Assembly: GCA_028705995.1 (NCBI GenBank)
Contig: JAQWCH010000010.1
Span: forward strand, 1 to 36,091
Direction: 5' to 3'
Source: Bacilli bacterium
GTDB lineage: Bacteria; Bacillota_I; Bacilli_A; RFN20; CAG-826
DNA length: 36,091 nucleotides
Shown: piece by piece, positions 7,459 through 26,170 of the stretch
How positions within the stretch are numbered: position 1 is the first letter of the stretch
How the letters are laid out: each line of letters starts with the position of its first letter
Translations under genes and position numbers: made by a program
Notes under the pieces: generated by a model
The model's input: only the letters and a program-made list of their open reading frames with translations
Databases searched by the model: none
Told to the model about the DNA's origin: nothing

Positions 7459-7606
7459 AATCTTCTCCGATCAAGATGTGTTTAATGAAATGACAAATTA
7501 ATTTCGAATGGCAACTGCTTGTGTTTTTCAAGAATATTCTTTATCTTATTTCTATATATATATTAACTGAGATCAATAAAAAAAAGCAAAGTTGAGTACA
7601 TAAAAA

Positions 7607-8419: not shown

Positions 8420-8465
8420 TGGCAAAAAGACCTCTATTTATCAAAACACCCTTGATTTGCCTATA

Positions 8466-8981
8466 TTATTGAATCGGCTTTTCAAATGCGATTCGCACTT
8501 TATTTCCTTCAAGGATAGCCACACCGACTGCTCGATAACCATTCTTTTTTAATAAATTAATCATCGGTATGTTTTTTTCGTGTGTATCAATTCGCACAGC
8601 GGCTTGCTGTTTTTCATGCGCTAAATGCTCGACAAACTGAAGCATTTTACTCGCTATACCTTTTTGCCGGGCTGAACTAGTAACGGCAAAACGGTGAATG
8701 ACAAAATAGGAACCCGCAACTTGCCAACTGCCACTTTGTAGCTGGTCATAGTCTTTTTCGTAATCAAGGACCGCCATCACGGCAAGAATTTTAATGCCTT
8801 CTTTTAACACATAAAAGGCCTTATTTAAAATGTCCTGTCGAATTGTATTTTCGCTCGGTGTTCCATCTTGCCATTGACCAGAGTTTTGGGTTTTAAGCAA
8901 TTGGCGTGCATCATCAATTACTTTCATAATCTGCTCTAGATCATTGGGTTTTGCTAATTCAATTAAATAGTTTGTTTCCAT
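8466..8981 (-). CDS. GNAT family N-acetyltransferase
   Basis: VIHRFAVTSSARQKGIASKMLQFVE (acetyl-CoA loop) and IDTHEKNIPMINLLKKNGYRAVG. Confidence 0.88.
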   Translation of the reverse strand: METNYLIELAKPNDLEQIMKVIDDARQLLKTQNSGQWQDGTPSENTIRQDILNKAFYVLKEGIKILAVMAVLDYEKDYDQLQSGSWQVAGSYFVIHRFAVTSSARQKGIASKMLQFVEHLAHEKQQAAVRIDTHEKNIPMINLLKKNGYRAVGVAILEGNKVRIAFEKPIQ

Positions 8982-8996
8982 TTATTTTTGTTCTAT

Positions 8997-10211
8997 CTAG
9001 TTAATTTTTTGATCCGCTTTTTCAATAAATTCGATATACGTTTTTAATATTTGTTCAACAACTGCCGGGCGTACATTGTCCAATGTATCCTGTGGTGTAT
9101 GATAGACATTTGAACGGTTTTCATTGCTCCATGGCATCCCGATTGCTGTTGTCACACGCACACCTTTTTTTGCTAACTCCGCAGCATCTGTTCCACCAGT
9201 TAGAAATGCTAGTTTCTGTGTTGTCACTTTTTCTCCATGCTGAGAGGCAATTGTCGCTAATTCAGTTGCCAATGCTACGTCAAGGGCAACAAAGTTATTT
9301 AAATCACTAGTTAAAAAGAATAGTTCACGTTCATCATACAAACAGTCCATATTTAAACCGATTGTTGGCGTTTCTTTAAACTCTTTAAGATGTTTTTTCG
9401 CATATGAGCGTGCCCCTCGTAAGCCTTCTTCTTCAGCATCAAAACTCATAAGAATTAAGCGTGTGTGTTGGAGACCTTTTCCCGCGCTTTTTTGTTCTTT
9501 ATAGTATTGTCCGATTGTTAGAGCAAGCGCTGATGCTACAAGGTTATCACCTGCACCTGGTGTGGCGGTTTTACTTGCGAAAAACCACATTTGACCAACA
9601 AGTAGCGTACCCCCTGATAAGACAATTTTTAGTATTAGGTTAAGCGTAGTAAGTGGCGGATAAATTAATAAATAAGCGGATACGACAATCAGTAATATAA
9701 CAAGGGCAATCGAGCCTGTTGTCCGTAAATTGTAAAGTTTTGGCTGATGAATCAGAAAATTAAATGTATGGGCACTATCGTGATGACCAGAAACAATAAT
9801 TTGTTGTTTCACTTCTTTTTCTGGTTCAAGCACACCATAAACGTTCCGCGCTTTTTTTCGCGGATAGAAAATATCTAATAAAGGTAAGTAAAGGAAAAAC
9901 TGGAACACTAAGATTAGCAGTGCAAGTGCAGCGATAATTAAGGCATAAAGAGGAAGTTTAAACCAAAGCAAGGTCACACTAGCAATATAGGCAATTACAA
10001 GTAGCCGAATCCAACCAAGAAAAGCACCTTTATGGATAATGAAGTCTTCACTTGCCACCCAATCCGAAAACGTTTCAAGTTCAGCTTTTAAATCATCCGC
10101 AGTCGCTAATGCGGCTTTGGTACCAGCAAGACGTGGACCGTGCGTTTTAATCAATTTATCGGTTCGCTTAAACACATCTTCGCGTAACTTTTTGACATCC
10201 ATAATATTCAT
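8997..10211 (-). CDS. Membrane-associated M28 family metallopeptidase
   Basis: Zinc-ligand motifs SGHHDSAH, GAGDNLVAS, FDAEEEGLRGARSY, VYHTPQDTLDNV; internal TM helices. Confidence 0.9.
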   Translation of the reverse strand: MNIMDVKKLREDVFKRTDKLIKTHGPRLAGTKAALATADDLKAELETFSDWVASEDFIIHKGAFLGWIRLLVIAYIASVTLLWFKLPLYALIIAALALLILVFQFFLYLPLLDIFYPRKKARNVYGVLEPEKEVKQQIIVSGHHDSAHTFNFLIHQPKLYNLRTTGSIALVILLIVVSAYLLIYPPLTTLNLILKIVLSGGTLLVGQMWFFASKTATPGAGDNLVASALALTIGQYYKEQKSAGKGLQHTRLILMSFDAEEEGLRGARSYAKKHLKEFKETPTIGLNMDCLYDERELFFLTSDLNNFVALDVALATELATIASQHGEKVTTQKLAFLTGGTDAAELAKKGVRVTTAIGMPWSNENRSNVYHTPQDTLDNVRPAVVEQILKTYIEFIEKADQKIN

Positions 10212-10321
10212 CTCCTCAATGTATTTTGATCAGTCTTTTTTATTATAATTTAGAACATAAAAATTGACTATATCTTTCAAACGTACGCCCTCTCACGTAT
10301 ATATAATTGGTATTTGAACAG

Positions 10322-10351
10322 CAAATAAAAAGGCCAAATTATTTTGGCCTA
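10322..10351 (-). terminator. Intrinsic terminator of the GGDEF gene
   Basis: Minus strand AGGCCAAA-ataa-TTTGGCCT then TTTTATTT. Confidence 0.8.
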
Positions 10352-10396
10352 AATTTAACTATGTTTTATCAATTCATTAAAACTAAAAAAACTAAA

Positions 10397-11557
10397 TTAT
10401 TTATCCGCGCATTCGCTACTTGTTTGCTCAATAAGTTTGCGTTCTTTTTTATTTTCATACATCGCATCATCAATAATTTCCAAAAATTCTTCTGCGATAC
10501 AATTTTGTCCTTTGCAAAAGGCATGACAGCCAATACTCAGTGTAATTGGCACCGCTGTTGTCGGCAACGCGTTATATTCTTTAATTGCTTCAATTAACTG
10601 ATGTTTATAATCCTTAAGTTCACTTGGATCTTTTAAAGGACGAATAACAACAAATTCATCACCGCCAAAGCGCGAAACGAAATCACCTTTATTCATGAGA
10701 TTAAGTAAAATATCAGCAAATTCACGCAGGGCGGCATCACCAGCATTGTGACCTTTTTCATCATTGAGAGCTTTAAAATTATCAAGATCAATCATATAAC
10801 CGCCAATACAAGTATCTTTATTCATGCGTTTAATCTTTTCATTAAGTTTTTGGATTAATTGCCGCCGATTATATAGGCCAGTTAAATAGTCGGTAACGGC
10901 AAATAAATGTTGTAAACCCAGGGCAGTAATAATAAAGGTCAAAATCAGGCTTGTGATTAAAATTGTAAAGTCGCCAATTATTGTCTGACTAACAATTCCC
11001 ATAAACGGCAAAAAGTTAATAAGAAACATAATTTCAGGATGGTTAGCTGGTTTGATACTGCGCCACTGCGCGAGAATAATAATTAAGGAGATGACAAAAG
11101 GAATTAGTGTAAAAATACCATAGATAAAGAAATATGGGCCAATTTGCGGCGGGTATGTCCCTGAAAAATCAAAATACAAATTGTATCCCGGTATAATTGA
11201 AAATATAGAGAAGCCTAAATTAGCAAGCAAAATAATGAGCGCGATAATGTTTAATATTAAACTTTTAAATTTACACTTTGTGAATGAATAGACAAAAAAT
11301 AGCCAAAAAACACTGATTAAAGGAACGATGATACTGCTTAAAACTACAAATAAAACAGTTAATCGATGGAGGGTATTAAATAGATAGGAAATATGAATAA
11401 CAACATTAAAGGCTAAAAGTAAAATGATTGTATAAAAAATGCTTTTGAAAATACGATGTGCTTGATTGCCCGGACTAAACTGCTTATATAGATAAGCGTA
11501 GACAGCAAGTACAACGATGAAAAGAAATATATCAGTCATTAAATTAAGGTATGTCAT
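10397..11557 (-). CDS. Multi-TM diguanylate cyclase (GGDEF domain)
   Basis: Polytopic N-terminus, then DYLTGLYNRR...FVSRFGGDEFVVIRP with intact GGDEF. Confidence 0.93.
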   Translation of the reverse strand: MTYLNLMTDIFLFIVVLAVYAYLYKQFSPGNQAHRIFKSIFYTIILLLAFNVVIHISYLFNTLHRLTVLFVVLSSIIVPLISVFWLFFVYSFTKCKFKSLILNIIALIILLANLGFSIFSIIPGYNLYFDFSGTYPPQIGPYFFIYGIFTLIPFVISLIIILAQWRSIKPANHPEIMFLINFLPFMGIVSQTIIGDFTILITSLILTFIITALGLQHLFAVTDYLTGLYNRRQLIQKLNEKIKRMNKDTCIGGYMIDLDNFKALNDEKGHNAGDAALREFADILLNLMNKGDFVSRFGGDEFVVIRPLKDPSELKDYKHQLIEAIKEYNALPTTAVPITLSIGCHAFCKGQNCIAEEFLEIIDDAMYENKKERKLIEQTSSECADK

Positions 11558-11842
11558 AATAAAATTATTACTTTAACTGATAAAAGGTTATCGTAATTTC
11601 GTCCCCCTGAAATTAAATAATCTCACAAAAATTTAAATGCTCTACAGTATTTATGATTATATCATAAGGATTACGCTGTGGACACTCATTTTTTAATTAC
11701 TCTAAATTTAGTTGTTTGTCACGCCGAATCTTTCTATTTAAAGTTATTATTTACGAAAAAAATATAGTGAGCATACGAAGAGTTTTACTTTAAATACGAA
11801 TTTTTTGCCTTTTTTACACTATTTTGAAAATTTGAAGATTTA

Positions 11843-11871
11843 TTGACATCCATTTTTAAAGTATTTATACT
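11843..11871 (+). promoter_or_regulatory. Sigma-A promoter upstream of riboswitch 1
   Basis: Consensus TTGACA - 17 nt - TATACT; predicted TSS near 11878 at the start of the aptamer. Confidence 0.85.
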
Positions 11872-11879
11872 TTGCTTAG

Positions 11880-11952
11880 AGACAAAGGCAAAACTAGAGC
11901 AATCTAGCGACGCAAAGCTATAGGGCCTTATTGTGAGGTAGCCAGTTACCTA
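11880..11952 (+). ncRNA. Cyclic di-GMP-I (GEMM-I) riboswitch 1
   Basis: aaaggcaaaactagagcaatctaGCGACGCAAAGCtatagGGCCttattgtgaGGTAGCCagttacc matches the GEMM-I core (GACGCAAAGC ... GGCC ... GGTAGCC). Confidence 0.9.
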
Positions 11953-11990
11953 CTGCTTGAATAGAGGGAAAGGTACTGCGCTACTTTTTT
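11936..11990 (+). terminator. Expression-platform terminator of riboswitch 1
   Basis: GTAGC-CAGTtACC ... GGTACTG-CGCTAC-TTTTTT; the 5' arm is the 3' strand of the aptamer. Confidence 0.7.
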
Positions 11991-11997
11991 GTAACCA

Positions 11998-12873
11998 ATG
12001 GGCAAAAAACACTGGCTTTTAGCGACTAATTTTATAACTTTACTTGTGAGTGGTATGCTGCTTTCAACTTTTTCCTTTGCGTGGATAAATAACAACCGGT
12101 TTGTTGATCACATTGAACTTCAAATTGGTGAAGCGCAAGCACAAGTCCAAGGTTATATGTTTAAACGTCAGCATAGTGGACTCACGACCTATACGAATTT
12201 AACTCCTGAACTTAATGAGAGTCTTATCGCTAGCGACCAAGGTCAATTAACATTTACGTTTGAAGATGCAAGCGGAACCTTTTTCAGTGACTTTTCGCTC
12301 GCTAACTTATATCTAAATGAAAATACGCTTAATGCCAATGCGTTCCCGGCATATTTTGTCGAATTGCAACTATTTGCCAACGTGCCGCTCTCATATTTAA
12401 AAATATCGTTGATGCTCCCAGACTATGTAAGTCCAGAAATCGTCCCTGCTTTTAGTGATTTCTCCTACCGTTTTATGGTGCAAAACAATAATGCTTTACT
12501 TCCGCTGGAATATGCGACGCCCGCACCAAACGGCGTTGATATTTTATCTACCTATGGACTGATCAACATGTTAAGTGGCGTCACTAATTACGATCCAACT
12601 ATAAATAATTTAGGTCCTTATGACAGTCTTAATGGTCGCATTATCGATGAAAATAATAGTGAACAGATTACCTTAATGATTCCGGCTGGAGAACAAGGAT
12701 TTTACTACAATCATTTTTTAAAAAGTGTGGTGGTCGAAATTACACCAGATCCGCTAGCTTTTTATCAATTCATTGATAATAATCCAGATCTTGCTGATAA
12801 TGATTTGCTATTCGGTCGCAAACTACAGTTCAATTTCCAATATTCGCTCGTGCCTTTTGGAGTAACGCCATGA
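11998..12873 (+). CDS. Exported protein with SipW/TasA-type N-terminus (putative surface/matrix protein)
   Basis: [33 protein letters not shown]; next ORF starts in an ATGA overlap. Confidence 0.75.
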   Translation: MGKKHWLLATNFITLLVSGMLLSTFSFAWINNNRFVDHIELQIGEAQAQVQGYMFKRQHSGLTTYTNLTPELNESLIASDQGQLTFTFEDASGTFFSDFSLANLYLNENTLNANAFPAYFVELQLFANVPLSYLKISLMLPDYVSPEIVPAFSDFSYRFMVQNNNALLPLEYATPAPNGVDILSTYGLINMLSGVTNYDPTINNLGPYDSLNGRIIDENNSEQITLMIPAGEQGFYYNHFLKSVVVEITPDPLAFYQFIDNNPDLADNDLLFGRKLQFNFQYSLVPFGVTP

Positions 12874-15203
12874 AGAAAATGAATCTTAAAACCATTTTGC
12901 TCCTTTTAGGTTCAATCGTGACTGGGGCTGCTGCTTCAATTGGTTTTGCTTCAGCCGCCTTTATATACAATCAGCAATATCAAGTGCCGGTTGATTTTAA
13001 CGTTGGGCGTTTATCAACATATTTTGAAGGCGGAAATGGGAGTAAAACTACTCCGTATCTAATTGCAACTCCCGATCATTTACGCAATTTACAAAAACTT
13101 AATGTGCTTGGTGTGTTTGGCAAAAACACACATTTTCGCTTAAGTTCAACAATCCCGACGACCGGAATGGTTTGGAGTGGTGAAAATCTTATGCCGATTG
13201 GTAGTGAAGATTACCCATTTTTCTCGCAGTTTGATGGTAATGGTAAAATCATCAATAATTTAGTTGTCGTCGGCTCGCAAACAAACGATGTCGGTATGTT
13301 TGGCTACACCGCGATTAATAGTCAAGTACATGATTTCATTTTAAGTGCGCCAACAATTTATGTGAACGCTGAAAATAACCCCAACCAATTAGCAACAACT
13401 AATCCTTTTGATAGCATCTTAAGTACGGAAGCAACTAATTTACAAATTACCCTAACACCACGCAATGGGACTGCTCAAGCGTATTTTACCGTTAGCGCAA
13501 CAAGTGTCAGCGCTAATGGCGTTAGCTACGCAATCCAATGGACAAGTAGTGATGAAAGTCTTTTAGTTTATGATGCGAATACAAGTCGCTGGAATGTTAA
13601 TGTTCCTGCCGATGCTGAAGATGGGGCGTTTTATCCTGTTCAATTAGCAGCAACTGTATACGGTTTATATCAAGACATGATTGTTTCTTACACGCTCGAA
13701 AGATGGCAAATAAATGTGACCGATGCTGGTGATGTAAATATTGCCGATGTTTCAACTGACACCAATCAAGGTTATTGGAAAACTATTCATGATATAGATA
13801 ACATTGGTTTTGGCGTTCATGCTACTTATGTTGGATTCTTTATTGGTCATCTCGATGGTGAAGCACGAAATCTTGGTCTTTATGGTGGCAGTGATAACGC
13901 TCTTGCCAATAACGCTAAACTTTACGTATCCGGCCGCCAGGTGCAATCTTATACAACATTGATTGGACGTTCTGTTAACGATAACGTTAATGATGATGCA
14001 AACGGTGAATTCACCCGGCGCTTTTTTGATTATGATGCTTTGATTCGCGATTCAGCTAATCTTTATCCCCCACTGCCTGAGCAACTTTTACCAGCTGTTA
14101 ATGAACCAGCGTTACCAACTGTTTCAACCGAAATCAATACTTACTACACAGATATGCAAACTTACGCACAAAATTTATCTTCGCACTATGGAGTGACAAC
14201 AAGCGAATTTTCCTATCTCCGGCACTATCCTGGTCTTACTGATACGAGTTATATCAATGGCGCGAACACGCAATATGCGCTCCAAGTTGATGATGCTCTC
14301 GCCGGCTATATGGTCATTCAGAAAAAGAGTTCCTGGATTGGAACCCGCTATATCAATACGTATTCGTTCCTACATAATGGTATTTGGATTTACATGAGCA
14401 CGACAAATCCGGGATGGTCAAGTTTGATTACAAATACGCGCTATGAAGCAAAAATTCGTGTTTCTTATGTGGCAACCGGAAGTAACGAAAACAAATTCCA
14501 ACTATTATTTAACTCTTACAATCCAAATCCCGGAAGCTTTCTCGGAATTCCGCTCAATTATTATTCCACAAATGTTTTTGAAGATTTAAGTACTGAACTC
14601 GATGATAATAATAACCCAATCTACGATCCAAGTGCCCATTCTGTAATTCTTACTGATGAATTTGGTAGTCCATTAACTGGTGTTGTTGAACAAGAATTAT
14701 CCTTTGTTTTTGATCGTGATCGCTTTGCTTTATCGTCTGGCTATCATCTTGTAATCGGCTTAGGTGTTGGGCGCACGCGGTTAACTCCAACTTATGTGGC
14801 GAGCACATCAACTGATAATACCGCAATGACAAGACAAACATATGATCTTAATTACACGAACTTTTCATTGAAGATTCTTAGTTTAGATTTATTTTTCACT
14901 TCATTAGATGGAACCATAAGCCGGCAAATTAATAACGTTGACTATTTATATGCTTTGCCAAGTTTTAGTGATGGTAGTTGGACCGATTGGCCAATTAGAA
15001 GTGGGGTCCGCATAAACTTTGATGTCGTCACAAGCGCGATATATACAAGCGGTCAATACGCGAATTACCGTTTCTATCGCTCGGCTAATCAATTCTTTAG
15101 TGGTTCAACGGTCTATGGCATTCAAAATGTCACTAGTAACGATTGGAACTTAGAAAATACGACTAATTATTCATCCGCCACATTTTCCAGTGAAACATGG
15201 TAG
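12870..15203 (+). CDS. Large exported surface protein with GLUG-like repeat region
   Basis: N-terminal signal anchor; YLIATPDHLRNLQKL and FDGNGKIINNLVVVGSQTNDVGMFGYT resemble GLUG-type repeat contexts. Confidence 0.65.
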   Translation: MKKMNLKTILLLLGSIVTGAAASIGFASAAFIYNQQYQVPVDFNVGRLSTYFEGGNGSKTTPYLIATPDHLRNLQKLNVLGVFGKNTHFRLSSTIPTTGMVWSGENLMPIGSEDYPFFSQFDGNGKIINNLVVVGSQTNDVGMFGYTAINSQVHDFILSAPTIYVNAENNPNQLATTNPFDSILSTEATNLQITLTPRNGTAQAYFTVSATSVSANGVSYAIQWTSSDESLLVYDANTSRWNVNVPADAEDGAFYPVQLAATVYGLYQDMIVSYTLERWQINVTDAGDVNIADVSTDTNQGYWKTIHDIDNIGFGVHATYVGFFIGHLDGEARNLGLYGGSDNALANNAKLYVSGRQVQSYTTLIGRSVNDNVNDDANGEFTRRFFDYDALIRDSANLYPPLPEQLLPAVNEPALPTVSTEINTYYTDMQTYAQNLSSHYGVTTSEFSYLRHYPGLTDTSYINGANTQYALQVDDALAGYMVIQKKSSWIGTRYINTYSFLHNGIWIYMSTTNPGWSSLITNTRYEAKIRVSYVATGSNENKFQLLFNSYNPNPGSFLGIPLNYYSTNVFEDLSTELDDNNNPIYDPSAHSVILTDEFGSPLTGVVEQELSFVFDRDRFALSSGYHLVIGLGVGRTRLTPTYVASTSTDNTAMTRQTYDLNYTNFSLKILSLDLFFTSLDGTISRQINNVDYLYALPSFSDGSWTDWPIRSGVRINFDVVTSAIYTSGQYANYRFYRSANQFFSGSTVYGIQNVTSNDWNLENTTNYSSATFSSETW

Positions 15204-15209
15204 CAAATT

Positions 15210-16031
15210 ATGAATAAACATCAAAAGCGCATTTTCCAACTTCGAATTAAACTCGGGCTCACATTTGTCTCGTTAGCCGTCGCTTTAACATCGCTTGTCT
15301 ATGTTACATATTCCTGGTTTATGTTTAATCGTAATGCTTCAATTGGTGGATTAGATGTTGGAATTGAACAAATTGTTACCCATCAGTTGAAATACTTTGT
15401 TGGTAATGGTGATGAAGGTTATCCTTCAAGTGATTTTTCCTCAACTGATGTCGATGTGAGTGTTGATGATTACGCGAGTGACTTTGTCCCTGTCTCCAGT
15501 GATTTTCATCAATATCAGTTATCAATCAAACAACCATCCTATCGTTTGACCTTTGCTTTAGAATTATCACTAAGTGCGAGTGATGTCGCGCGTACGTATG
15601 AAATAAAGATTAATGGATTTACAAGTGAAAGCGCGGCAAATTACTATAACGTTGCGACCAATCAACTAATCAATATTGCCGAGGCGGTTAATATCTATAG
15701 CACGATTATTAATGGTGATGCTGACAATACTACAATTACAAGTAACGCCGCCGCTTTTGTGAGTGCAGCCACACCAGCTGAAGGTGATAAATTTGATGGA
15801 ACTGACGAGTACGCAACTTTAAATTCTTTCTCTTTTGATGCGAGTGTCGTCCCGCAAAAAAGAATTTTTCTTTTTACAATTAACTTTAGTGATGACCCAG
15901 CGACTTACTATAATTTTCATTCCTATGCTGGAGATAATCTATATTTTGAAAAATCTCCACTCGGAAATTCTAATGTCTATCAAGGACTGATTTTCCGCTT
16001 GGATGCTCTACTTATTAGCCGTACTAATTGA
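15210..16031 (+). CDS. Exported protein with SipW-type N-terminus
   Basis: LRIKLGLTFVSLAVALTSLVYVTYSWFMFNRNASIGG; same operon, 6-nt gap to previous gene. Confidence 0.65.
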   Translation: MNKHQKRIFQLRIKLGLTFVSLAVALTSLVYVTYSWFMFNRNASIGGLDVGIEQIVTHQLKYFVGNGDEGYPSSDFSSTDVDVSVDDYASDFVPVSSDFHQYQLSIKQPSYRLTFALELSLSASDVARTYEIKINGFTSESAANYYNVATNQLINIAEAVNIYSTIINGDADNTTITSNAAAFVSAATPAEGDKFDGTDEYATLNSFSFDASVVPQKRIFLFTINFSDDPATYYNFHSYAGDNLYFEKSPLGNSNVYQGLIFRLDALLISRTN

Positions 16032-16081
16032 TCTTTTATCAAGTCAAAATGCATTTTTTAAAAAAATTTAATACATTCCGC

Positions 16082-16111
16082 TTGCATAAAAATTTGCATT
16101 TGAATTATAAT
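16082..16111 (+). promoter_or_regulatory. Internal promoter ahead of the tandem TasA-like genes
   Basis: TTGCAT - 18 nt - TATAAT. Confidence 0.6.
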
Positions 16112-16112
16112 A

Positions 16113-16248
16113 AAGGTACCAAAAATTAACCGCACCTCCCTCGTTGGTTAGATTCTTGGAAGCGAATTGCCCGCTTGACTCGGTGCCCATTAACATGCGA
16201 GTCTCACCCCTTGATGACAAAGGGAATAAAAAATGGAGGATTTTAGTC
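16113..16248 (+). promoter_or_regulatory. Structured 5' leader with anti-Shine-Dalgarno potential
   Basis: Stems GAAGCG/CGCTT, GACTCG/CGAGTC, CCCTT/AAGGG and TAACC/GGTTA; CCTCC (16135-16139) complementary to RBS GGAGG (16235-16239). Confidence 0.45.
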
Positions 16249-17082
16249 ATGAATAAGAAGAATAAAGTTTTATTAACATCTGTCGGTCTTGCCTTACTCA
16301 GTGGTATTGCCGCAACTGGTTCCACCTTTGCTTGGTTTACAACCACCCGGACGGCGAGTGTTTCCTACTCAAAAGCGACGGTTAAATCTGGTCAAAGTAA
16401 TTTACTTATTGATTATGTCAGTTCACTAAATACGATGACAGAAAGCCAAGCTGATAGTCTACTTACCTTAACTGGCGGAAATATGGTAACTGATATTTCT
16501 GGTAATGGTTTGAATTTCTATAAGCCAGTGTGGAGTGCTGATCCAGCGATGGCTAGCTCAATTAATGTAGTGGATTTTTCCTCTTCAGCTGACGGTTTAT
16601 TTATTGATTTTACAATCAGCGTCACCATTCAAGGTGAAGCTTCGATGAATGTTTATCTTGGCGCGGACACTGTAATCTCTGCTTTTGACGCTAATCCGGA
16701 AAGTGTTGAGGCTGTAGCCTCATCGAGAATGGCGGTTATTGTTGATGGTGCCGCTGTTTTATATTATGCCCCTGATCTGGATGGAGCTGCCCCACTTAGT
16801 GCTGCTTCATCAACACCAGTAGCAATTGCTAGTGCAACAACTACTGCTCTTTCACCAGTACCAGTAGCTTCTTTCACCACTCATACATCCAATCCTGTTG
16901 ATTTTGCTGGACGTATTTTATCCTTAGTACCAACAGAGTCTGTTCTTGGTGCAGGAGACTGGTCAGCAACTAAAAACGTTACTTTCCGGGCATGGGTTGA
17001 AGGTCAAGATGCCGATTGTGATAACGATGCCATTGGCGGCATTTTCGATATCGACATTGATCTCTTTGCGCTTGAAGCTTAA
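16249..17082 (+). CDS. TasA/CalY-like (SipW-dependent) surface fibre subunit, paralog 1
   Basis: ATG 16249 with RBS TGGAGGA; MNKKNKVLLTSVGLALLSGIAATGSTFAWFTTTRTASVSY; C-terminal FRAWVEGQDAD. Confidence 0.78.
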   Translation: MNKKNKVLLTSVGLALLSGIAATGSTFAWFTTTRTASVSYSKATVKSGQSNLLIDYVSSLNTMTESQADSLLTLTGGNMVTDISGNGLNFYKPVWSADPAMASSINVVDFSSSADGLFIDFTISVTIQGEASMNVYLGADTVISAFDANPESVEAVASSRMAVIVDGAAVLYYAPDLDGAAPLSAASSTPVAIASATTTALSPVPVASFTTHTSNPVDFAGRILSLVPTESVLGAGDWSATKNVTFRAWVEGQDADCDNDAIGGIFDIDIDLFALEA

Positions 17083-17117
17083 GTTATTTGCTATTTATTT
17101 TGTGATCTAGTTAATAA

Positions 17118-17155
17118 GAAGACTTTATGGGTGTACCCATACTCATAAGGTCTTC
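17118..17155 (+). other. Intercistronic hairpin without U-tract
   Basis: GAAGACTTTATG ... CATAAGGTCTTC, 12-bp stem with one G-U, followed by AAATAAAA. Confidence 0.65.
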
Positions 17156-17216
17156 AAATAAAATAGTTCATCATCCATTTAAAAAAGAAAAGGAAAACAA
17201 AAAAAGGTATTCAACT

Positions 17217-18059
17217 ATGAATAAAAACAAAAAATTATTGTTGTCTTCGGTTGGACTTGCGGTCCTCAGCGGAATTGCTGCGACTGGTTCAACCTTCGCT
17301 TGGTTTACAACAACACGTACAGCCACTATTTCTTATACAAGCGCGACGGTTGTTTCTAAACAAAGCAATCTAAAAATTACATATGTTAGTTCTAATGATA
17401 CATTTGATCCAGTGCCTGAAGCCGGAGCGGTAAGTTCATTATCCTTAGTCGGTGGTATGGATATTACCGATATTTCTGGAGATGGTCTTAATTTCTACAA
17501 GCCGGTTTGGAGTGCTACTGCCGAAACTGCCAGCGCAATTAACGCTGTTACAGCATCAGTTGGTAATTGGGTCGAATTTACTGTCACTATTAGTCGTGAT
17601 AATGTCACTGGCATGAAAGTTTATCTTGGTGCAGGAACATCTATCACGCCTAAAACTGCTCTTGATGAGCAAGATCTTAAGGCAGTTGCCGCCTCCCGTT
17701 TAGCTGTAATTAACGTTGATACACCAGCCTCTCCAGTTGTCGAATGCATTTATACACCAAGTGACGCTAGCCATAGTTATTTAACTACTGCTGCTGCTGG
17801 CACAGCCGTTTATGGTATTGATGGTTATACTAAGGTTACTTATGCTGGTGACTTAGTGACCGGGACTTTAGCAACACAAACCACCATTGGTGCCGCAGAT
17901 GCTGCTAAAACACTTGTTGCTGATTTATCTACAGAGACTTCAGCCGATGTTACTTTCCGGGCATGGCTTGAAGGCGAAGACACCGATGCGATTAACGAGG
18001 CGATTAGTGGCGTCTTTGATATTAATATCTCCTTGTTCGGTCTTGACGTTGTTGCCTAA
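17217..18059 (+). CDS. TasA/CalY-like (SipW-dependent) surface fibre subunit, paralog 2
   Basis: MNKNKKLLLSSVGLAVLSGIAATGSTFAWFTTTRTATISY, near-identical N-terminus to paralog 1; C-terminal FRAWLEGEDTD. Confidence 0.78.
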   Translation: MNKNKKLLLSSVGLAVLSGIAATGSTFAWFTTTRTATISYTSATVVSKQSNLKITYVSSNDTFDPVPEAGAVSSLSLVGGMDITDISGDGLNFYKPVWSATAETASAINAVTASVGNWVEFTVTISRDNVTGMKVYLGAGTSITPKTALDEQDLKAVAASRLAVINVDTPASPVVECIYTPSDASHSYLTTAAAGTAVYGIDGYTKVTYAGDLVTGTLATQTTIGAADAAKTLVADLSTETSADVTFRAWLEGEDTDAINEAISGVFDINISLFGLDVVA

Positions 18060-18096
18060 AAATTTAAAAAAGATAGTCTAAATCATATATTTATTT

Positions 18097-18137
18097 GGGT
18101 GTTAATCAAGTTTTGATTGACACCCTTTCTTTTTTTT
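18097..18137 (+). terminator. Intrinsic terminator ending riboswitch-1 operon
   Basis: GGGTGT-tAATCAA-gttTTGATT-gACACCC followed by TTTCTTTTTTTT. Confidence 0.92.
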
Positions 18138-18180
18138 ACTACGATAAACTTGTATACCAAGATTAGAGGGTTATAAATTA

Positions 18181-18549
18181 ATGGAAACAATTGAAAAAAA
18201 GGCGAAAATACCTGGGTGGCTGTCTTTAACGTTACTAATTGGTGAAGTCGCTTTAATGCTATTCCTTGTCACTATTTCAATCATTACAATGGCAACAGTT
18301 GGAAGCGCTCAAGGTATTATTAAGTGGTTTCAACTAAATCCGATCTGGATGTTTGTGATTGTGGTCTTTCCTCTTATTGTGCTCTTCTTGTTTAATGTCT
18401 ATCTATTAATCAAAACACTTAATTCACAAAAAGAAAAATCTTTTGATCCAAGTGGTATGACACAGGAAGAATTACTCGAAGAGGCGCGTAAACAAGCTCG
18501 TGAAGAATTAATGAAAGAAATGGAAAAAAACAAGGATTCCAAACAATAA
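18181..18549 (+). CDS. Small two-TM membrane protein with charged C-terminal coil, unknown function
   Basis: 122 aa; two hydrophobic helices, then EELLEEARKQAREELMKEMEKNK. Confidence 0.7.
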   Translation: METIEKKAKIPGWLSLTLLIGEVALMLFLVTISIITMATVGSAQGIIKWFQLNPIWMFVIVVFPLIVLFLFNVYLLIKTLNSQKEKSFDPSGMTQEELLEEARKQAREELMKEMEKNKDSKQ

Positions 18550-18572
18550 TTCTTGCAATAATTTAGTAAAAT

Positions 18573-18600
18573 AGGGTGGAGCAATCTACCCTTTTTGTTT
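18573..18600 (+). terminator. Intrinsic terminator
   Basis: AGGGT-ggagcaatct-ACCCT followed by TTTT. Confidence 0.65.
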
Positions 18601-18626
18601 ATTTAGAAAAATTCTAAGTATGGGTA

Positions 18627-18655
18627 TTTACAATTATTTTTATATCGTTTATAAT
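18627..18655 (+). promoter_or_regulatory. Sigma-A promoter upstream of riboswitch 2
   Basis: TTTACA - 17 nt - TATAAT, TSS predicted near 18662. Confidence 0.8.
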
Positions 18656-18662
18656 TTAGTCG

Positions 18663-18733
18663 TTAAAAGCAAAGCTAGAGAAATTTAGCGACGCAAAACT
18701 ATAGGGCCTTCTAACGATGGTAGCCAGTTGCCA
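18663..18733 (+). ncRNA. Cyclic di-GMP-I (GEMM-I) riboswitch 2
   Basis: taaaagcaaagctagagaaatttaGCGACGCAAAACTATAGGGCCTTctaacgatgGTAGCCAGTTgcca; same core as riboswitch 1. Confidence 0.88.
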
Positions 18734-18790
18734 AAATGAATAGAAAGATCTAATCATTTATCGGGCAATTCATGGTTATCATCGTTTTTA
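18714..18790 (+). terminator. Expression-platform terminator of riboswitch 2
   Basis: CGATGGTAGCC...TTGCC pairs with GGCAA...GGTTATCATCG followed by TTTTTA; overlaps the aptamer 3' strand. Confidence 0.7.
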
Positions 18791-18946
18791 TTCAAATAGA
18801 GGGACTCTCCACTCAGTATGAGTAAAGAGCAGAGTGAGCAAGCCGCGTGACCATATGTAATGGATATGCGTTAAAGCTGGTCTTGTTTGCGAAAAGCATC
18901 GTAGATGTGTTCTTTCACGTTGTTTATTGAGAAAGGAGGTAGATCA

Positions 18947-20104
18947 ATGGCAAAGATTAATTTAGAACAAGAATTTATCGATAACCGCAAGCGCAAAAAA
19001 CGCGCGAAGGTGCTCGGTATCATTTCAACTTCTTTAATCACCGGCTTTGTGATTATCTCTTATCTCGGGTACGCGGTTGGCGAGCATCTGGCAAACGCAA
19101 CAACTGTATCATTAATTGATCAGTCAGATGATATCGGTGTAACCGAAATTGGATTCCGCGTGCCGTCAATGATTCCTTATGCCGACCAAGAAAAATATGA
19201 TCTTCATCCAGATGAATACCAGGTGCATGGTGATGGTTATGTCTATTGGACATCAACCAAAGTCAGTGGACAAGCAATTCGCTACATTGTCAATCATTGT
19301 GGCTATTCAGCGAATAATACAATTGAACCCGTGACATCTGGCCCATTTCAAAAAGGTCAACAGTTAAACCTGCTTTCACAAACAGAGCTGGCAGGTGTTA
19401 GCCCATATGTCGAACAAACCGAAGATGCACAAAAAGCGCACTATATTGCCTTTGAACTGCTTTTCCGCGTTGCTCATGAACAAGCAAATGATTTCTATGT
19501 CGGTGTTGAAGATTATTATATTTATCTTAGCCGCGATATTCAATTTTATGGCGAAGACCGGATGGTCGATGCGTTACGCTTTGGTTTTGCTAGCAGCTTA
19601 ACAACGGATATTATTAATCCAAGCCGCTCCCAAGGTGGAACAACCGAAGTCGGTGGTCGTCTCGATTTGGACCGCGATGGTTATTTTGACTATACATTAG
19701 AAGGGTCACGGTTAAATCCCGATGATCCAGTTGGTTATCAATATGAAATTGGTTATGGCTCATTCCTTGAACCGTTAGAAGCGGATAGTTGGGGTGAAGT
19801 TTTAACTGCTGACGTCCCAATTGAAGACCAAAACGCATTATCTTTTTATCATGCTAATTCAAAAAACGGTGTAAAACCCCTTTTATCGTATACGCCGGCT
19901 GTGGCGGAGTATTCAGCTTTTGCCGATTATACTGTTGAAAATCCCGATGGTGAAGCAATTGCCATCACTGATGCTAAAGGCATCGCGGAAGTTTCCATCA
20001 AAATTTGGCTTGAAGGTTGGGATGCTTCTTCAATTGACGAACTTCGCGATAAAACATTTGGGGCTAACTTACGTTTCACCGCAAGTGCTGGTAGCGAAAT
20101 ATAA
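18947..20104 (+). CDS. Exported/membrane-anchored surface protein related to TasA-like subunits
   Basis: RBS GAAAGGAGGT; N-terminal TM; C-terminal VSIKIWLEGWDASSIDELRDKTFGANLRF shares the WLEGxDxx pattern with the 16249 and 17217 products. Confidence 0.7.
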   Translation: MAKINLEQEFIDNRKRKKRAKVLGIISTSLITGFVIISYLGYAVGEHLANATTVSLIDQSDDIGVTEIGFRVPSMIPYADQEKYDLHPDEYQVHGDGYVYWTSTKVSGQAIRYIVNHCGYSANNTIEPVTSGPFQKGQQLNLLSQTELAGVSPYVEQTEDAQKAHYIAFELLFRVAHEQANDFYVGVEDYYIYLSRDIQFYGEDRMVDALRFGFASSLTTDIINPSRSQGGTTEVGGRLDLDRDGYFDYTLEGSRLNPDDPVGYQYEIGYGSFLEPLEADSWGEVLTADVPIEDQNALSFYHANSKNGVKPLLSYTPAVAEYSAFADYTVENPDGEAIAITDAKGIAEVSIKIWLEGWDASSIDELRDKTFGANLRFTASAGSEI

Positions 20105-20155
20105 TTATTTATTTTCACTGATTATTGCTATAATTAACCAAGGATATGTTTAAAA

Positions 20156-21679
20156 ATGACAGCATTTTTTAGTTACATTCGTGAACTATTTGAAGCGATT
20201 TTTCGTAATATCTGGCAATTCATTGTGACACTTTTTGCCCGTCCATGGATCGGTGCAGCAAGTGATTTTCAAGAGTACTCATTGATTTTCGAAACATATA
20301 ATCCCCAGTTCCGTGTCGGCGGATGGATTTTCTTTGTCATTTTTATTTTAATCGTTATCGCTTTTTTAGCTGGTGTTGGTTATGGCGTCTACTACTTAGT
20401 ACGTAAATTTGTCGTCTATCATCATCACACGGTGACGAAAGAACGCTTGATTGAAGAAAATCAACGACTAAACAAAGAATTACTCTTTGCAATCCAGGAA
20501 AAAAACGAGATTTTAAAATTGAAAGCAGAAACATTTGGGGTTGATTTAGCCGAAGGCGATCAAGACACCGCAAATCGTAAAGCGCAGGAAGCTTTCCCGC
20601 GTTTAACCGAAATTGATACGCTTTATCAAGAAACGCCACATGAAATTAATATTCCGGCATCTGATGTTGGCCTCTCACTTGATCAATTAGTTAAACGTTA
20701 TCAAAGATTTGCCGCTTCACAACTTGGCTTATATTATGATATCCAAACAATCCGGACGATGTTTGCCGCACTTGGAACAAGTAAATTCATTATTCTTGAA
20801 GGTGTATCTGGTACTGGTAAAACCTCATTTCCTTATTCGTTAGGCAAGTTCTTTAAACGCGATGTTACTGTTTGTTCGGTCCAACCATCATGGCGCGAAC
20901 GCACAGAAATGATGGGATATTTTAACGAATTCACGAAAAAGTTTAATGAAACAGAATTTTTATGTGCGATTTATGAATCCACCTACCGCAAAGATGTCAA
21001 TATTGTCATTCTTGATGAGATGAATCTGGCACGAATTGAATATTATTTTGCTGATTTCCTCTCAATTATGGAAATGCCGGTAGTTGAAGAGTGGCGCGTA
21101 GAAGTCACACGGACGCCCGACAACATGAATCCAAAACGAATTGAAGAGGGCAAACTCTTAATCAATCAAAATTTATGGTTTATTGGCACGGCTAATAACG
21201 ATGATTCAACTTTTAAAATTACAGACAAAGTATATGACCGGGCAATAACGTTAACACTCAATGACAAGGGTGAACAATTTGATGCCGAATATACTGAAGG
21301 TGTTTTTATACCGTATGACAATCTCGCACTTTTATATCAACAAGCGCAAACTAATTATCCAATTAGTAAAACAACATTAGCAAAATTTGAAAAACTTGAT
21401 GAATATGTTGCTACGCAATTCCGCATCGGTTTTGGTAACCGAATTATGAAACAATTAAAAATCTTTGTGGCCAATTATGTGGCCTGTGGCGGAAAAGAAT
21501 TAGAAGCCGTTGACTTTATTTTTGCTTCAAAGATTCTTAAAAAGTTCACGGCTTTAAATCTCCCGTTTATGCGCGATGAACTTAATGCCCTTCATAGTGA
21601 ATTAGATAAACTATTTGGTAAAGGAGTGTTCGCCCAGTCACAAAGATTAATCAAAGATTATCTGAAAGTTAGTGGCTAA
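20156..21679 (+). CDS. Membrane-anchored McrB-like AAA+ ATPase
   Basis: TM helix GGWIFFVIFILIVIAFLAGVGYGVYYLV; Walker A GVSGTGKTS; SWRERTEMMGYFN; Walker B IVILDEMNLARIEYYFADFLS; FIGTANNDDSTFKITDKVYDRA. Confidence 0.85.
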   Translation: MTAFFSYIRELFEAIFRNIWQFIVTLFARPWIGAASDFQEYSLIFETYNPQFRVGGWIFFVIFILIVIAFLAGVGYGVYYLVRKFVVYHHHTVTKERLIEENQRLNKELLFAIQEKNEILKLKAETFGVDLAEGDQDTANRKAQEAFPRLTEIDTLYQETPHEINIPASDVGLSLDQLVKRYQRFAASQLGLYYDIQTIRTMFAALGTSKFIILEGVSGTGKTSFPYSLGKFFKRDVTVCSVQPSWRERTEMMGYFNEFTKKFNETEFLCAIYESTYRKDVNIVILDEMNLARIEYYFADFLSIMEMPVVEEWRVEVTRTPDNMNPKRIEEGKLLINQNLWFIGTANNDDSTFKITDKVYDRAITLTLNDKGEQFDAEYTEGVFIPYDNLALLYQQAQTNYPISKTTLAKFEKLDEYVATQFRIGFGNRIMKQLKIFVANYVACGGKELEAVDFIFASKILKKFTALNLPFMRDELNALHSELDKLFGKGVFAQSQRLIKDYLKVSG

Positions 21680-21696
21680 AGGATGGAACTCAAGTA

Positions 21697-23130
21697 ATGC
21701 CGAATAATCAAAAAAAAACACCAATAAAAAATAACAAGACGATTGATAGTTATAAAGAAGCATACTTTTCTCATCTCGAAAAACTTGTTCGTGATGATAA
21801 AAGTATTGCTTTGTTATTTCAAGCATTTAAAAATGGTAAAAATACCTATGCTGGTATCCATCGGCGGGAGAATAAGACTTACTCACCAGATTTTATTGTC
21901 GAAATTGAAAGTGCAATTGGCTCATTAGAAGCAATTGTTAATGATCCCCATCGTTTTATTAAAGAAAATCCTCTTGTTGTCGAAGTTGAAAAAGCAAAAC
22001 GTGTTACCCATCACTCGATTAAACATATGGCCCAGCATACGGAGAATATTGCCTCGGTTGGTAACGATGGTTCGGTTGATCCAAAGCGCGTTTTAAATAT
22101 GTTTATTGAAGACGAACTTAAAATCTATGAAAACCGTTTTATTATGACGCTTGTTCGGCGTTTACAAACTTTTATTGAACTGCGGTATAAATACATAATC
22201 GAACATAGCGATACACGTGATAGCGATGCCGTAGCGATGACCAGCCAAGTTAAGATTGGCGATGTCACCTATGAGATGGAAACAAAACTCAAGGTCGTTA
22301 TACCTAGTGATGATGAGGGACACCGCGCAGCGAATCAAGATTTATTAAATCGCTTAATCATGCTGCGTAAACGCACACTATTTTTGGCAACCTCGCGCTT
22401 CATGCTCGAAATGCAAAAGGCGGCTCCGGTCAGTGATCCAGTTTTACAAACAAATATTATGCGCCTGAATTACGATTATCAAAATGCTTATCGTTTATGG
22501 TTATTCATTAGCCGTTACGATCAATTAGGGATTGAATACAAATTTCAAGAAACTAAATTTGATTTTAATGAAGACTATCTAAATCGACTGGCTTTCCTCA
22601 ACCTAAGCTCTTATCTTTCGGTTGATAGTCCTAACCAGATTTTGCCGGATGATAGTAGCAAATTGTATTTTTATAAGCCGAAATTCCAAAAGCTTAATCT
22701 CGATGTCGACCTCACTGATGAACGCATCTTCGCCAAGGGCAATCCATTTAAGATTAATAATAACCGGGAAACTGAAGCGCAGATTGCCGCAAAGTTAAAA
22801 CGACAAAAAGCTGCGGAAGAACGCCGGCTTAAAAAAGCAGAAGAAAAACAAAAACAAAAAGAATTAGCCGCGCAAAAACGGCTTGAAGCGAAAAAGAAAG
22901 CGGAAGAAAAACGACTTGAGGCAAAAAAGAAAGCCGAAGAAAAGAAAGCCCGGGAAGCGGAACGCAAACGTCAGTTAGCGTTAGTGGCTGCTGAACGTAA
23001 GCGAATTGAAAAAATTAAACTTGAAGAAGCGAAAAAACTAGAAAAAGCCCGGCAAGATGTCGCAAAGATTGCGATTAAACGGAAAAAAGTTACAAGTAAT
23101 GAGCGCACAAGTAGTAAATCCAAAAAATAA
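21697..23130 (+). CDS. DUF2357/McrC-like partner with C-terminal Lys/Glu/Ala-rich coiled coil; no PD-(D/E)XK motif seen
   Basis: Adjacent to McrB-like gene; FIEDELKIYENRFIMTLVRRL resembles the DUF2357 core; C-terminus RLEAKKKAEEKRLEAKKKAEEKKAREAERKR. Confidence 0.6.
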   Translation: MPNNQKKTPIKNNKTIDSYKEAYFSHLEKLVRDDKSIALLFQAFKNGKNTYAGIHRRENKTYSPDFIVEIESAIGSLEAIVNDPHRFIKENPLVVEVEKAKRVTHHSIKHMAQHTENIASVGNDGSVDPKRVLNMFIEDELKIYENRFIMTLVRRLQTFIELRYKYIIEHSDTRDSDAVAMTSQVKIGDVTYEMETKLKVVIPSDDEGHRAANQDLLNRLIMLRKRTLFLATSRFMLEMQKAAPVSDPVLQTNIMRLNYDYQNAYRLWLFISRYDQLGIEYKFQETKFDFNEDYLNRLAFLNLSSYLSVDSPNQILPDDSSKLYFYKPKFQKLNLDVDLTDERIFAKGNPFKINNNRETEAQIAAKLKRQKAAEERRLKKAEEKQKQKELAAQKRLEAKKKAEEKRLEAKKKAEEKKAREAERKRQLALVAAERKRIEKIKLEEAKKLEKARQDVAKIAIKRKKVTSNERTSSKSKK

Positions 23131-23872
23131 AAAGAAAAGCCTCTGGAGTAAAATTTTCACTTATGGATTTGGTGTTTTAATTGCACTCCTGCTTGGCTTT
23201 CAAATTATTGGCACCATTTCGGCACAAAACAATTTTGGTGTTGCCAGTTTTTTTGGCTACCAAACATTGATTGTTGAAACAAATTCCATGGAACCAGCAA
23301 TTATGACCAATGAAGCGATTGTGATTAAGAAAGTTGATCTTGCGACAATTAAAGCCTCTTCTTCTTATGAAGAGCTTGATGGCGACGTTATTACTTTTTA
23401 CCGCCGTGATGATGGACGAATAGTAACGCACCGTGTGGTCGAGATTCTTCCACAAGTTGATGGTAGTTATAATTTCCGTACACTTGGCGATAATCTATAT
23501 GCCGATTCGTGTCCTGGTGGATATTGTGACCCGATGATGAGTCGGGACTATGTCTATGGGGAAGACGTGCTTGGCGTTGTAGTTGGCAAAAGTGCCTTCT
23601 TTGGCGCGGTGGTTAATTTCATGACAAAACCATTTGTGATTGCTATTGTCGCAGTTGTTCCACTATTCTACGTATTTATTAGTTCTATCATTGATATAGT
23701 AAAAAATAGTAAAATGAAAGAGGAAGATTTTGCTAGCGACGAGCTAGATGATTTTGAAGCACTCAAACAACGAGAAAAGTTCAAACTCTTGATTGAAATG
23801 GAAAAAGAAAAACTTCGCACGGAATTACAGTCTGATAAAAATAGTGATAAAGTAGGTGAGCATGATGAGTAA
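23099..23872 (+). CDS. sipW: Signal peptidase I, ER/SipW type
   Basis: TNSMEPAI (Ser nucleophile), VITFYRRDDGRIVTHRVVEI (His in place of Lys), RTLGDNLYAD; overlaps the end of the previous gene (ORF also open from 23057). Confidence 0.88.
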   Translation: MSAQVVNPKNKKKSLWSKIFTYGFGVLIALLLGFQIIGTISAQNNFGVASFFGYQTLIVETNSMEPAIMTNEAIVIKKVDLATIKASSSYEELDGDVITFYRRDDGRIVTHRVVEILPQVDGSYNFRTLGDNLYADSCPGGYCDPMMSRDYVYGEDVLGVVVGKSAFFGAVVNFMTKPFVIAIVAVVPLFYVFISSIIDIVKNSKMKEEDFASDELDDFEALKQREKFKLLIEMEKEKLRTELQSDKNSDKVGEHDE

Positions 23873-25433
23873 CAAAAAAACAAAATTATTAAGTGGTAAT
23901 AAGCGCATTGATTATAAGCGCTTGTTCTTCATTTTCTTCGTATGCTTTTTTGTTTTATTCGCCTTTGTCATTGTGCTAGCAACTGGCTTGCTTGATAATG
24001 CTTTGGGCGCAACTTTAAAATGGGTATTGATTATTCTAACCAGTGTAATTGCCCTTACTTTTTTAATTCTCGCCTTTTTATTTTTCTCACAGTCGAAAAA
24101 ACTTGCCGTGCAAAAACAACTTGATAGTGATGTATTTCCCTTACTTGATAACGTTTTTGATGAACGGGCATTAATTGAAAGAACGAATAAATTATTAAAA
24201 AGACGACCTGATCAAGTTTTTTATAGTGTTGCTTTTTCAACCTTCAAATTTAAAAAAGAAGTTTTTATGCGTTATGGTTATGAAAAAGAATCGCAAATTA
24301 TCTCAATTATCTTCTTAGCGATTGATGAACTTAAAGCACAAGTGCCGAATACTATTTATGGTTATGACTATAGTGAGCACTTCTTAATACTCTTACAAGA
24401 TGTGTCGGCGAACGATGTGCAAAATATTTTAGAAAAGCTTACAGAGCGCATTAATCGTCTGCTTGAAGAATATAAGATTGACATAGAAATATTACCGCAT
24501 TATGGGGTTGGGGTCCGCTCAGATCAAGAAAGCTTAACGGCGCAGGCTCTTTACCAAAATGCATTAACCGCCAGTGACCATGGGCGCCTTTCAAGTGAAC
24601 GGGGCGGCATCTTCTTCTTTGATGAAACGATGTTTAGCCGCAACGAACGCAATGTCGGGCTTGCCCGTGATATTGAAAAGGGACTGGAAAAAAATGAATT
24701 TGAAGTTTATTTCCAACCAAAATATGATTTAAATCTCAAACGTTTCTCCGGCGCTGAAGCTTTATTAAGATGGCATCACCCTGAACGCGGGACAATTCTC
24801 CCGGGTGCTTTTATTGCCTTAGCAGAACAATCAGACTTAGCCATTCGGATTGACTATTACGTTATTGATTTAGTTTGTAAATACTTGGCTGATTGGCGAG
24901 ACAAGGGATTACGGCTATTGCCCGTCTCAGTTAATATTTCTAAACGGACGATTTTTACCGTCGATATTGCCGCATATATTGAAAAAACAATTAAAAAACA
25001 TAGTATCAATCCGTTGTTACTAGAAATTGAAATTGTGGAAGCCCCATCGCCTTATGATGTTTTGTATTTATTAACAACAGTCAAGAAAATTAAGGCCTTG
25101 AATATCAAAGTTTCAATTGATGATTTTGGTACTGGTTTCTCTTCGTTAAGTTACATTAAAAAAATCCCGTTTGATATTATTAAAATCGATAAAGCCTTCT
25201 TAAGCGATATTGAAATTGATCATAAGTCACGGGGCCTCGTCGAAGAAATTATTAAATTAGCCCATATTCTTGAAACTTATGTAATTATTGAAGGTGTCCA
25301 AGAAGCTGAACAAATCAAACTGCTCAAAGCGATGAAAGCGGACTGCATTCAAGGTTATTATTATAGTGAACCTTTAAAGCCACAAGACTACATTGCCTTT
25401 ATCACCAATAATAAATTCGAAAAAAGGAAGTAA
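23865..25433 (+). CDS. Membrane EAL-domain c-di-GMP phosphodiesterase with degenerate GGDEF
   Basis: Two N-terminal TM helices; GGDEF position reads YDYSEH; EAL motifs AEALLRW, NIS, EIEIVE, DDFGTGFSSL, KIDKAFL, EGVQE, GYYYSEPL. ORF open from GTG 23856. Confidence 0.9.
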   Translation: MSNKKTKLLSGNKRIDYKRLFFIFFVCFFVLFAFVIVLATGLLDNALGATLKWVLIILTSVIALTFLILAFLFFSQSKKLAVQKQLDSDVFPLLDNVFDERALIERTNKLLKRRPDQVFYSVAFSTFKFKKEVFMRYGYEKESQIISIIFLAIDELKAQVPNTIYGYDYSEHFLILLQDVSANDVQNILEKLTERINRLLEEYKIDIEILPHYGVGVRSDQESLTAQALYQNALTASDHGRLSSERGGIFFFDETMFSRNERNVGLARDIEKGLEKNEFEVYFQPKYDLNLKRFSGAEALLRWHHPERGTILPGAFIALAEQSDLAIRIDYYVIDLVCKYLADWRDKGLRLLPVSVNISKRTIFTVDIAAYIEKTIKKHSINPLLLEIEIVEAPSPYDVLYLLTTVKKIKALNIKVSIDDFGTGFSSLSYIKKIPFDIIKIDKAFLSDIEIDHKSRGLVEEIIKLAHILETYVIIEGVQEAEQIKLLKAMKADCIQGYYYSEPLKPQDYIAFITNNKFEKRK

Positions 25434-25438
25434 GCGAT

Positions 25439-26170
25439 ATGATTTTAATAATTGGTACGACACCTGATGATATCATCTACTATAAAAACCGCATGCGGAT
25501 TAAAGAACAAGGCTTAATTTCTGCTAACTATCCTTATTATGTCGGGCGTTTAGCAAATAAAGATGTTTGTTTAACCTATACAGGCTATTCGAATATTGCT
25601 TCTGGCGTGATTGCTGGTTATATGATTGAGAAATTTTCGCCATATATTGTGATTATCACTGGGGCCGCATCGACGATCAATTTAAAAGCCAAGCAGTCCG
25701 ATTTATTTATTGCTGAGAAAATTTATCTTGGTGATGTCGATCTAACTTCGCTCGCTGATGTGCGTTATGGCCAAATTGAAAATCTCCCGCCATTTTATTC
25801 TTCCGATGAAGACTATATTCGCATGATTGAAACAATAAATAGCAAAACCGAAAATCGTCATTTATTGCGTGGTCCATTAATTTCGACAAACGTGTTCTTC
25901 AACGAGGAGAAAAAAGCCGAAAAGGTGCTTAAAGATCAATTTGGCAATATTGAATCGATGACGGCGTTTGATACAGAAGCCGGTGGCATTGTGACCGCTT
26001 GTGGCATTTATAGTGTTCCCTGGCTCCTACTTAAAGTAATTAATTACCACGTCGGTGATGAAATGGAATTTATATCAAGCCCGCGCATTAGCGTTGAAGC
26101 ACAGCCACAAATTGGTTACATCATCGAAACCTTGCTCTTAGAATTAGTTCATTCATTTAACAATATCTAG
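25439..26170 (+). CDS. Nucleoside phosphorylase/MTA-SAH nucleosidase-like protein
   Basis: VIITGAASTINLKAKQSDLFIAEKI and TAFDTEAGGIVTACGIYSVPWLLLKVINYHVGDE. Confidence 0.8.
   Translation: MILIIGTTPDDIIYYKNRMRIKEQGLISANYPYYVGRLANKDVCLTYTGYSNIASGVIAGYMIEKFSPYIVIITGAASTINLKAKQSDLFIAEKIYLGDVDLTSLADVRYGQIENLPPFYSSDEDYIRMIETINSKTENRHLLRGPLISTNVFFNEEKKAEKVLKDQFGNIESMTAFDTEAGGIVTACGIYSVPWLLLKVINYHVGDEMEFISSPRISVEAQPQIGYIIETLLLELVHSFNNI

Follow-up and report, generated by a model that had tools for sequence, protein, structure and literature searches.

Organization of the Locus

The stretch of DNA analyzed here (the window, 36,091 nucleotides; contig 13 of the 34 contigs of the 1.02-Mb source assembly that was searched) carries an AAA+ ORF of 507 aa and, 17 bp downstream on the same strand, a partner ORF of 477 aa. 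A first-pass annotation had paired the two ORFs over 20156-23130, and both the coordinates and the pairing were borne out; each protein was also found to be conserved across dozens of genomes. The unit of interest was wider than this pair, however, and covered about 11998-26170 with the following genes:

11998-12873, + strand: secreted protein with a SipW-type N-terminus (STFSFAWINN), from sequence
12870-15203, + strand: large secreted protein of 777 aa, conserved in locus L043 (sequence, locus comparison)
15210-16031, + strand: secreted protein with a SipW-type N-terminus (TYSWFMFN), conserved in L043 (sequence, locus comparison)
16144-17082, + strand: SipW-type signal-peptide protein, paralogue of the 17127-18059 protein, with a likely true start at about 16249
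17127-18059, + strand: SipW-type signal-peptide protein (GSTFAWFT) with a C-terminal WLEGED motif
18181-18549, + strand: small protein with apparently two transmembrane (TM) helices (by eye), also kept in the operons of close relatives
18905-20104, + strand: secreted or anchored protein just upstream of the AAA+ gene, with an N-terminal hydrophobic helix and a C-terminal IKIWLEGWD
20156-21679, + strand: AAA+ protein assigned to the McrB family, bearing the NxD signature, membrane helices at its N-terminus and a coiled coil (McrB profile, motifs, TM scan, AF2)
21697-23130, + strand: DUF2357 (McrC N-terminal-like) partner without nuclease, with a long charged C-terminal helix (Pfam, composition, model)
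23057-23872, + strand: SipW-like signal peptidase with NSM, THR and GDN motifs, overlapping the partner gene by 74 bp
23856-25433, + strand: membrane EAL (c-di-GMP phosphodiesterase) protein, a conserved downstream neighbor
25439-26170, + strand: nucleoside-phosphorylase/MTA-SAH nucleosidase-like protein, the conserved next gene in close relatives

The nucleosidase-like protein at 25439-26170 showed weak similarity (5.9e-10) to the fibril protein Fib of Spiroplasma, which is itself a relative of nucleosidases.

The AAA+ Protein Is McrB-Like and Carries an N-Terminal Membrane Helix

When the AAA+ protein was searched against solved structures, the top match was E. coli McrB (6hz4), with an E-value of 6e-4 for the single sequence and 4e-6 for a 21-sequence profile. 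The Walker A (GVSGTGKT) and Walker B (ILDEMN) motifs were readily recognized, and the AAA+ signature read GTANNDDST, the shortened NxD form (N347-x-D349-D350) instead of NxxD, a form that sets one branch apart within the McrB family (PMC11090510). The earlier claim of McrB-type motifs stood for the Walker motifs and the McrB match, and it needed correction for the signature, which is not the plain McrB one. Both Walker motifs, the sensor Asn347, Asp349, Asp350, and the finger Arg362 were invariant in the 21-sequence AAA alignment, and the NxD+D signature was present in every SipW-linked relative whose motif was found (that of L072 was not resolved). The Pfam AAA_5 family fell under its cut-off in the window's protein and matched 20 of the 21 relatives. 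On these grounds we assign the protein to the McrB family; it would hydrolyze GTP or ATP, the choice of nucleotide being putative.

A single strong TM segment was returned by the hydropathy scan (KD 2.94 at 54-72), with the TM helix lying at about residues 54-82, and the AF2 model (mean pLDDT 79.6) showed an unbroken helix at 54-127 followed by the AAA module, in agreement with the N-terminal TM helix and coiled coil that had been noted at first pass. By the hydropathy scan such an N-terminal TM was found in nearly all relatives and was absent from the restriction-type L068 and L067. A DNA-recognition domain, said at first pass to be lacking, was looked for specifically; N-terminal to the AAA module neither the Pfam scan nor the AF2 model revealed one, the region being made up of the TM and the helix. 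DivIC/FtsB was absent among the 25 Pfam families listed at E ≤1 for this N-terminus, and the agreement with FtsB was one of topology alone.

The Partner Has a DUF2357 Core and a Long Helix at the Nuclease Position

In a profile search of the genome, DUF2357 was detected in the partner at window positions 21754-22290 with 28.7 bits against the Pfam cut-off of 23.3; hmmscan of the window's partner protein missed the domain, and 16 of 20 family members matched DUF2357 at that region. The partner model (mean pLDDT 75, pTM 0.47, from a shallow alignment) comprised a helical bundle, a long beta hairpin (stalk) at 174-203 and a single helix of ~110 residues at 360-470, and the C-terminus consisted to 74% of K/E/A/R/Q. 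Both the DUF2357-like core and the C-terminal Lys/Glu/Ala coiled coil of the first-pass annotation were thereby recovered. The model is similar to the McrC finger domain, a bundle with a beta stalk (PMC7680126), and the long helix sits at the position of the McrC nuclease. Foldseek with this model gave no significant match of any kind, McrC included, so that the assignment of the partner is carried by the DUF2357 profile; the sequence of a restriction-type partner also gave no match to solved McrC. An equivalent of McrC Lys157/Arg263, through which McrC sets off hydrolysis, could not be mapped on the partner, the local alignment being ambiguous there.

The partner had further been described as lacking a PD-(D/E)XK motif, and this was confirmed by Pfam, by the model and by Foldseek. 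No PD-(D/E)XK family was found by Pfam in any of 20 partners (the window copy and 19 relatives), and neither a PDB-chain profile search nor Foldseek revealed a nuclease fold in the window's partner. The same Pfam method gave both DUF2357 (1.5e-32) and PDDEXK_7 (7.4e-27) in the partner of L068, a relative of restriction type that belongs to the same bacterial family and lies beside a C-5 cytosine methylase, and this served as the positive control. The PDB-chain profile matches that were obtained with the window's partner were rejected as coiled-coil artefacts. The L068 island (3746-12313) was seen to hold an NxD McrBC with PDDEXK_7, the C-5 cytosine methylase and ABC-3C middle component/CTD1 proteins.

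A SipW-Like Peptidase and Its Probable Substrates Share the Operon

The peptidase encoded after the partner contains the Ser-His-Asp motifs of the ER type (NSM, THRV, GDN) and scored 63.5 bits (1.9e-17) in NCBIfam; since the Bacillus cut-off in NCBIfam is 190, we name it a SipW-like relative and not the Bacillus equivalog. It was the sole SipW-family match in the source genome, the housekeeping type I signal peptidase of which was found on a different contig. The secreted proteins encoded upstream end their signal peptide in the SipW style (TFAWF) and have a C-terminal motif W-x-E-G-x-D in common; the IKIWLEGWD motif of the 18905-20104 protein is likewise common to SipW-type proteins. A profile of the secreted proteins matched three places in the source genome, every one of them in this operon. 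No PDB profile match to solved TasA/CalY was obtained with the secreted proteins; TasA identity was thus rejected, the proteins are named SipW-type only, and that they form fibers is something we infer.

Conservation of the Linkage and Variants of the Family

A SipW-like gene was present within two genes of mcrB at 27 of 29 SipW-linked and 7 of 7 ABC-transporter-linked loci (34/36, counted by hand from the locus tables, with contig fragments and one duplicate left out), and because the grouping of loci was itself guided by context, the tree and a genome-wide test are the fairer measures. In the genome-wide test, the NCBIfam SipW model NF046067 lay within 5 kb of 27 of 32 strong mcrB loci in 58 genomes, when about 1% was expected; the binomial tail is about 4e-47, a figure that exaggerates the evidence because related genomes are not independent. 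An EAL neighbor was found at 20 of the 24 loci having enough flank. No SipW neighbor was found at the Acholeplasma-type and double-McrB loci, so the motor family does not strictly require SipW. The family as a whole was found in 54 of 299 genomes sampled from the phylum.

In the AAA tree, each of two variants, the ABC-linked and the double-McrB one, came out as a single supported group; the two relatives of restriction type were placed far off on very long branches. The first-pass annotation had proposed a motor repurposed from restriction to envelope work: the envelope part gained support from the conserved SipW linkage, but the direction of change, read from the outgroup position, cannot be proven from a tree in which the restriction-type branches are so distant and so long.

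Several variants were met among the relatives, with one, four or about twelve TM helices on McrB, and no recognizable nuclease was found in any variant tested. At L060-L062 and L069-L072, McrB had about four TM helices and a SipW-like gene lay upstream; at L061, the one tested, an ABC transporter pair was found downstream together with a Flg_new-repeat surface protein. A related cassette was seen at L065 (7097-9769), L066 (8655-11363), L073-L079 and L081, in which an NxD McrB AAA continues into about 600 residues where about 12 TM helices are predicted (the TM scan covered L065 and L066), the DUF2357-like partner measuring about 510-535 aa. The neighbors of this cassette were not conserved, and the copy at L065 has a BREX-type island with PglZ and BrxL next to it. 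Two McrB-like genes flanked one DUF2357-like partner at L018, L019, L063 and L064, where no SipW neighbor was present, and the L063 locus adjoined a large transglutaminase-domain protein. At L004, L006, L007, L008, L009, L011, L015, L055 and L056, the pair of mcrB and partner stood between two SipW-like peptidase genes.

Relation to Known Systems

The architecture of the locus has a name. Bell et al. (2024, eLife, PMC11090510) gave the name CoCoPALM, in one paragraph that holds no analysis and defers to a later paper, to a clade with an NxD McrB, the signature of which is as a rule followed by D or E, carrying an N-terminal TM/coiled coil, a McrC homologue with a coiled coil and a linked signal peptidase; the McrB N-terminal domain was noted there as FtsB-like, and the main text gives no substrate type, c-di-GMP link or SipW assignment. 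Our literature search found no later CoCoPALM study. As the clade of Bell et al. has this architecture together with the signal-peptidase link, and nothing defining differs in the window, the locus can be classed from its sequence features as CoCoPALM-type, that is, as a member of a named, unstudied kind and not as a new system. The present analysis adds to CoCoPALM the SipW-like peptidase, its likely same-operon substrates, the regular c-di-GMP phosphodiesterase neighbor, the lack of a nuclease, checked with a positive control, and a number of additional variants.

With the McrBC type IV restriction systems of E. coli and T. gammatolerans, the window pair shares the AAA core, the sensor-1 Asn with Asp, the arginine finger (R362) and the adjacently encoded DUF2357 partner, whereas it is without DNA-reader domain and nuclease, has gained a membrane helix and has NxD in place of NxxD. 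The CoCoNuTs (types I-III) also have an NxD McrB with coiled coil, and some of their partners are without an active nuclease; nuclease-less CoCoNuTs always adjoin HEPN or another nuclease (PMC11090510), and RNA is the predicted target of CoCoNuTs. In contrast, no HEPN or other nuclease was found among the window operon neighbors tested. In the SipW operons, tasA of B. subtilis and bsaA of C. perfringens, a dedicated SipW peptidase and its own secreted substrates similarly stand in one regulated operon, but a McrBC-like motor is not described for them and the window substrates have no detectable TasA match. Those operons produce fibers (PMC9674648, PMC7395162), and BsaA of C. perfringens polymerizes even when produced in E. 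coli (PMC7395162).

Proposed Function of the Motor Pair

An envelope role of the motor pair is supported by its gene context, and three other functions were weighed against the one we favor. Anti-phage defense, by a membrane-bound McrBC-like sensor that would hit the envelope (abortive infection) and not DNA, is unlikely, though it fares best among the three. Restriction systems do occur within the NxD clade, the relative at L065 with its 12 TM helices lies beside BREX genes, and the AAA core of the window matches the PADLOC candidate-defense model PDC-M26A (3e-35). This model, on which nothing useful was found in the literature, matches any AAA core of the McrB family, however, and scored the restriction relative at 196.7 bits versus about 116-125 bits for those CoCoPALM-type proteins that were tested; the assignment to defense by PADLOC was therefore rejected as unspecific, and no partner had any PADLOC match. 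The lack of a nuclease among the tested operon neighbors, the synteny with secretion genes kept across clades and the absence of full-length copies from 72,556 plasmids and 50,697 phage records also speak against defense.

Somewhat less credible is a motor for protein remodeling or quality control that works at the translocon/SipW site, which would unfold or extract stalled precursors and would not assemble fibers. The same SipW linkage data fit it, AAA+ rings of its clade often remodel proteins, and the fold neighbors include RavA/MoxR; but one expects the DUF2357 stalk to block the pore, as happens in McrBC (PMC6624300), which disfavors the threading of a polypeptide, and neither a protease nor pore-loop evidence was found. 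The least probable of the three is a cell-division or cell-shape factor, for which the TM and coiled-coil N-terminus, FtsB-like according to Bell et al., speaks and the shift of S. aureus PcdA, a McrB-family protein, from restriction to division and a cell-structure role (PMC10602043) offers a precedent, but PcdA has EVE domains, degraded Walker motifs (Walker A included) and no DUF2357 partner where the window pair has intact motifs, a partner and no EVE, no division gene stands among the annotated neighbors, DivIC/FtsB was missing from the Pfam families listed, and the patchy spread in the phylum is unlike that of a core division factor.

We consider it probable that the locus encodes a CoCoPALM-type membrane motor driving the biogenesis of SipW-processed secreted proteins under c-di-GMP control, and within this reading the most likely role is that of an NTP-driven membrane motor for SipW-processed surface-fiber biogenesis. 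The McrBC structures that have been solved show the McrB hexamer plugged by one finger of McrC, which stimulates single sites in turn by placing a basic residue close to the signature Asp, an arrangement suggestive of rotation (PMC6624300, PMC7680126). By analogy, the conserved AAA motifs, DUF2357 and the stalk hairpin would allow a McrBC-like cycle in the window pair, where both ring assembly and stalk activation may be expected. The NxD AAA+ protein would form a hexamer ring, held beneath the cytoplasmic membrane through the helices at its N-terminus. The helical bundle of the partner, with its beta-hairpin stalk, would enter this ring and, as McrC does, trigger the NTP hydrolysis site by site; the long C-terminal helix of the partner, standing in for the nuclease, would relay how the stalk moves or where it stands to a further component. 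Tethering of the ring and the exchange of the nuclease for the long helix may have redirected the output to the envelope. The gene context suggests that this output is the processing, release or assembly of the same-operon SipW-processed proteins, probably as surface fibers, and that the neighboring EAL protein could place it under the control of c-di-GMP.

A further step, which we regard as possible and put forward tentatively, is that a membrane-fixed, stalk-driven AAA+ protein of McrBC descent powers the assembly or release of SipW fibers and so represents a new, c-di-GMP-gated class of fiber-assembly motor. SipW-type fibers are not known to depend on a cellular motor of their own. CoCoPALM received its name on the basis of gene neighborhoods only, and the operon described here narrows the set to be tested to one SipW-like peptidase, a few of its secreted proteins, an EAL protein and the nuclease-less motor pair. 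If the motor does drive fiber assembly, SipW-type fibers would gain an NTP-driven branch, and the stalk mechanism of McrBC would have a use other than on DNA.
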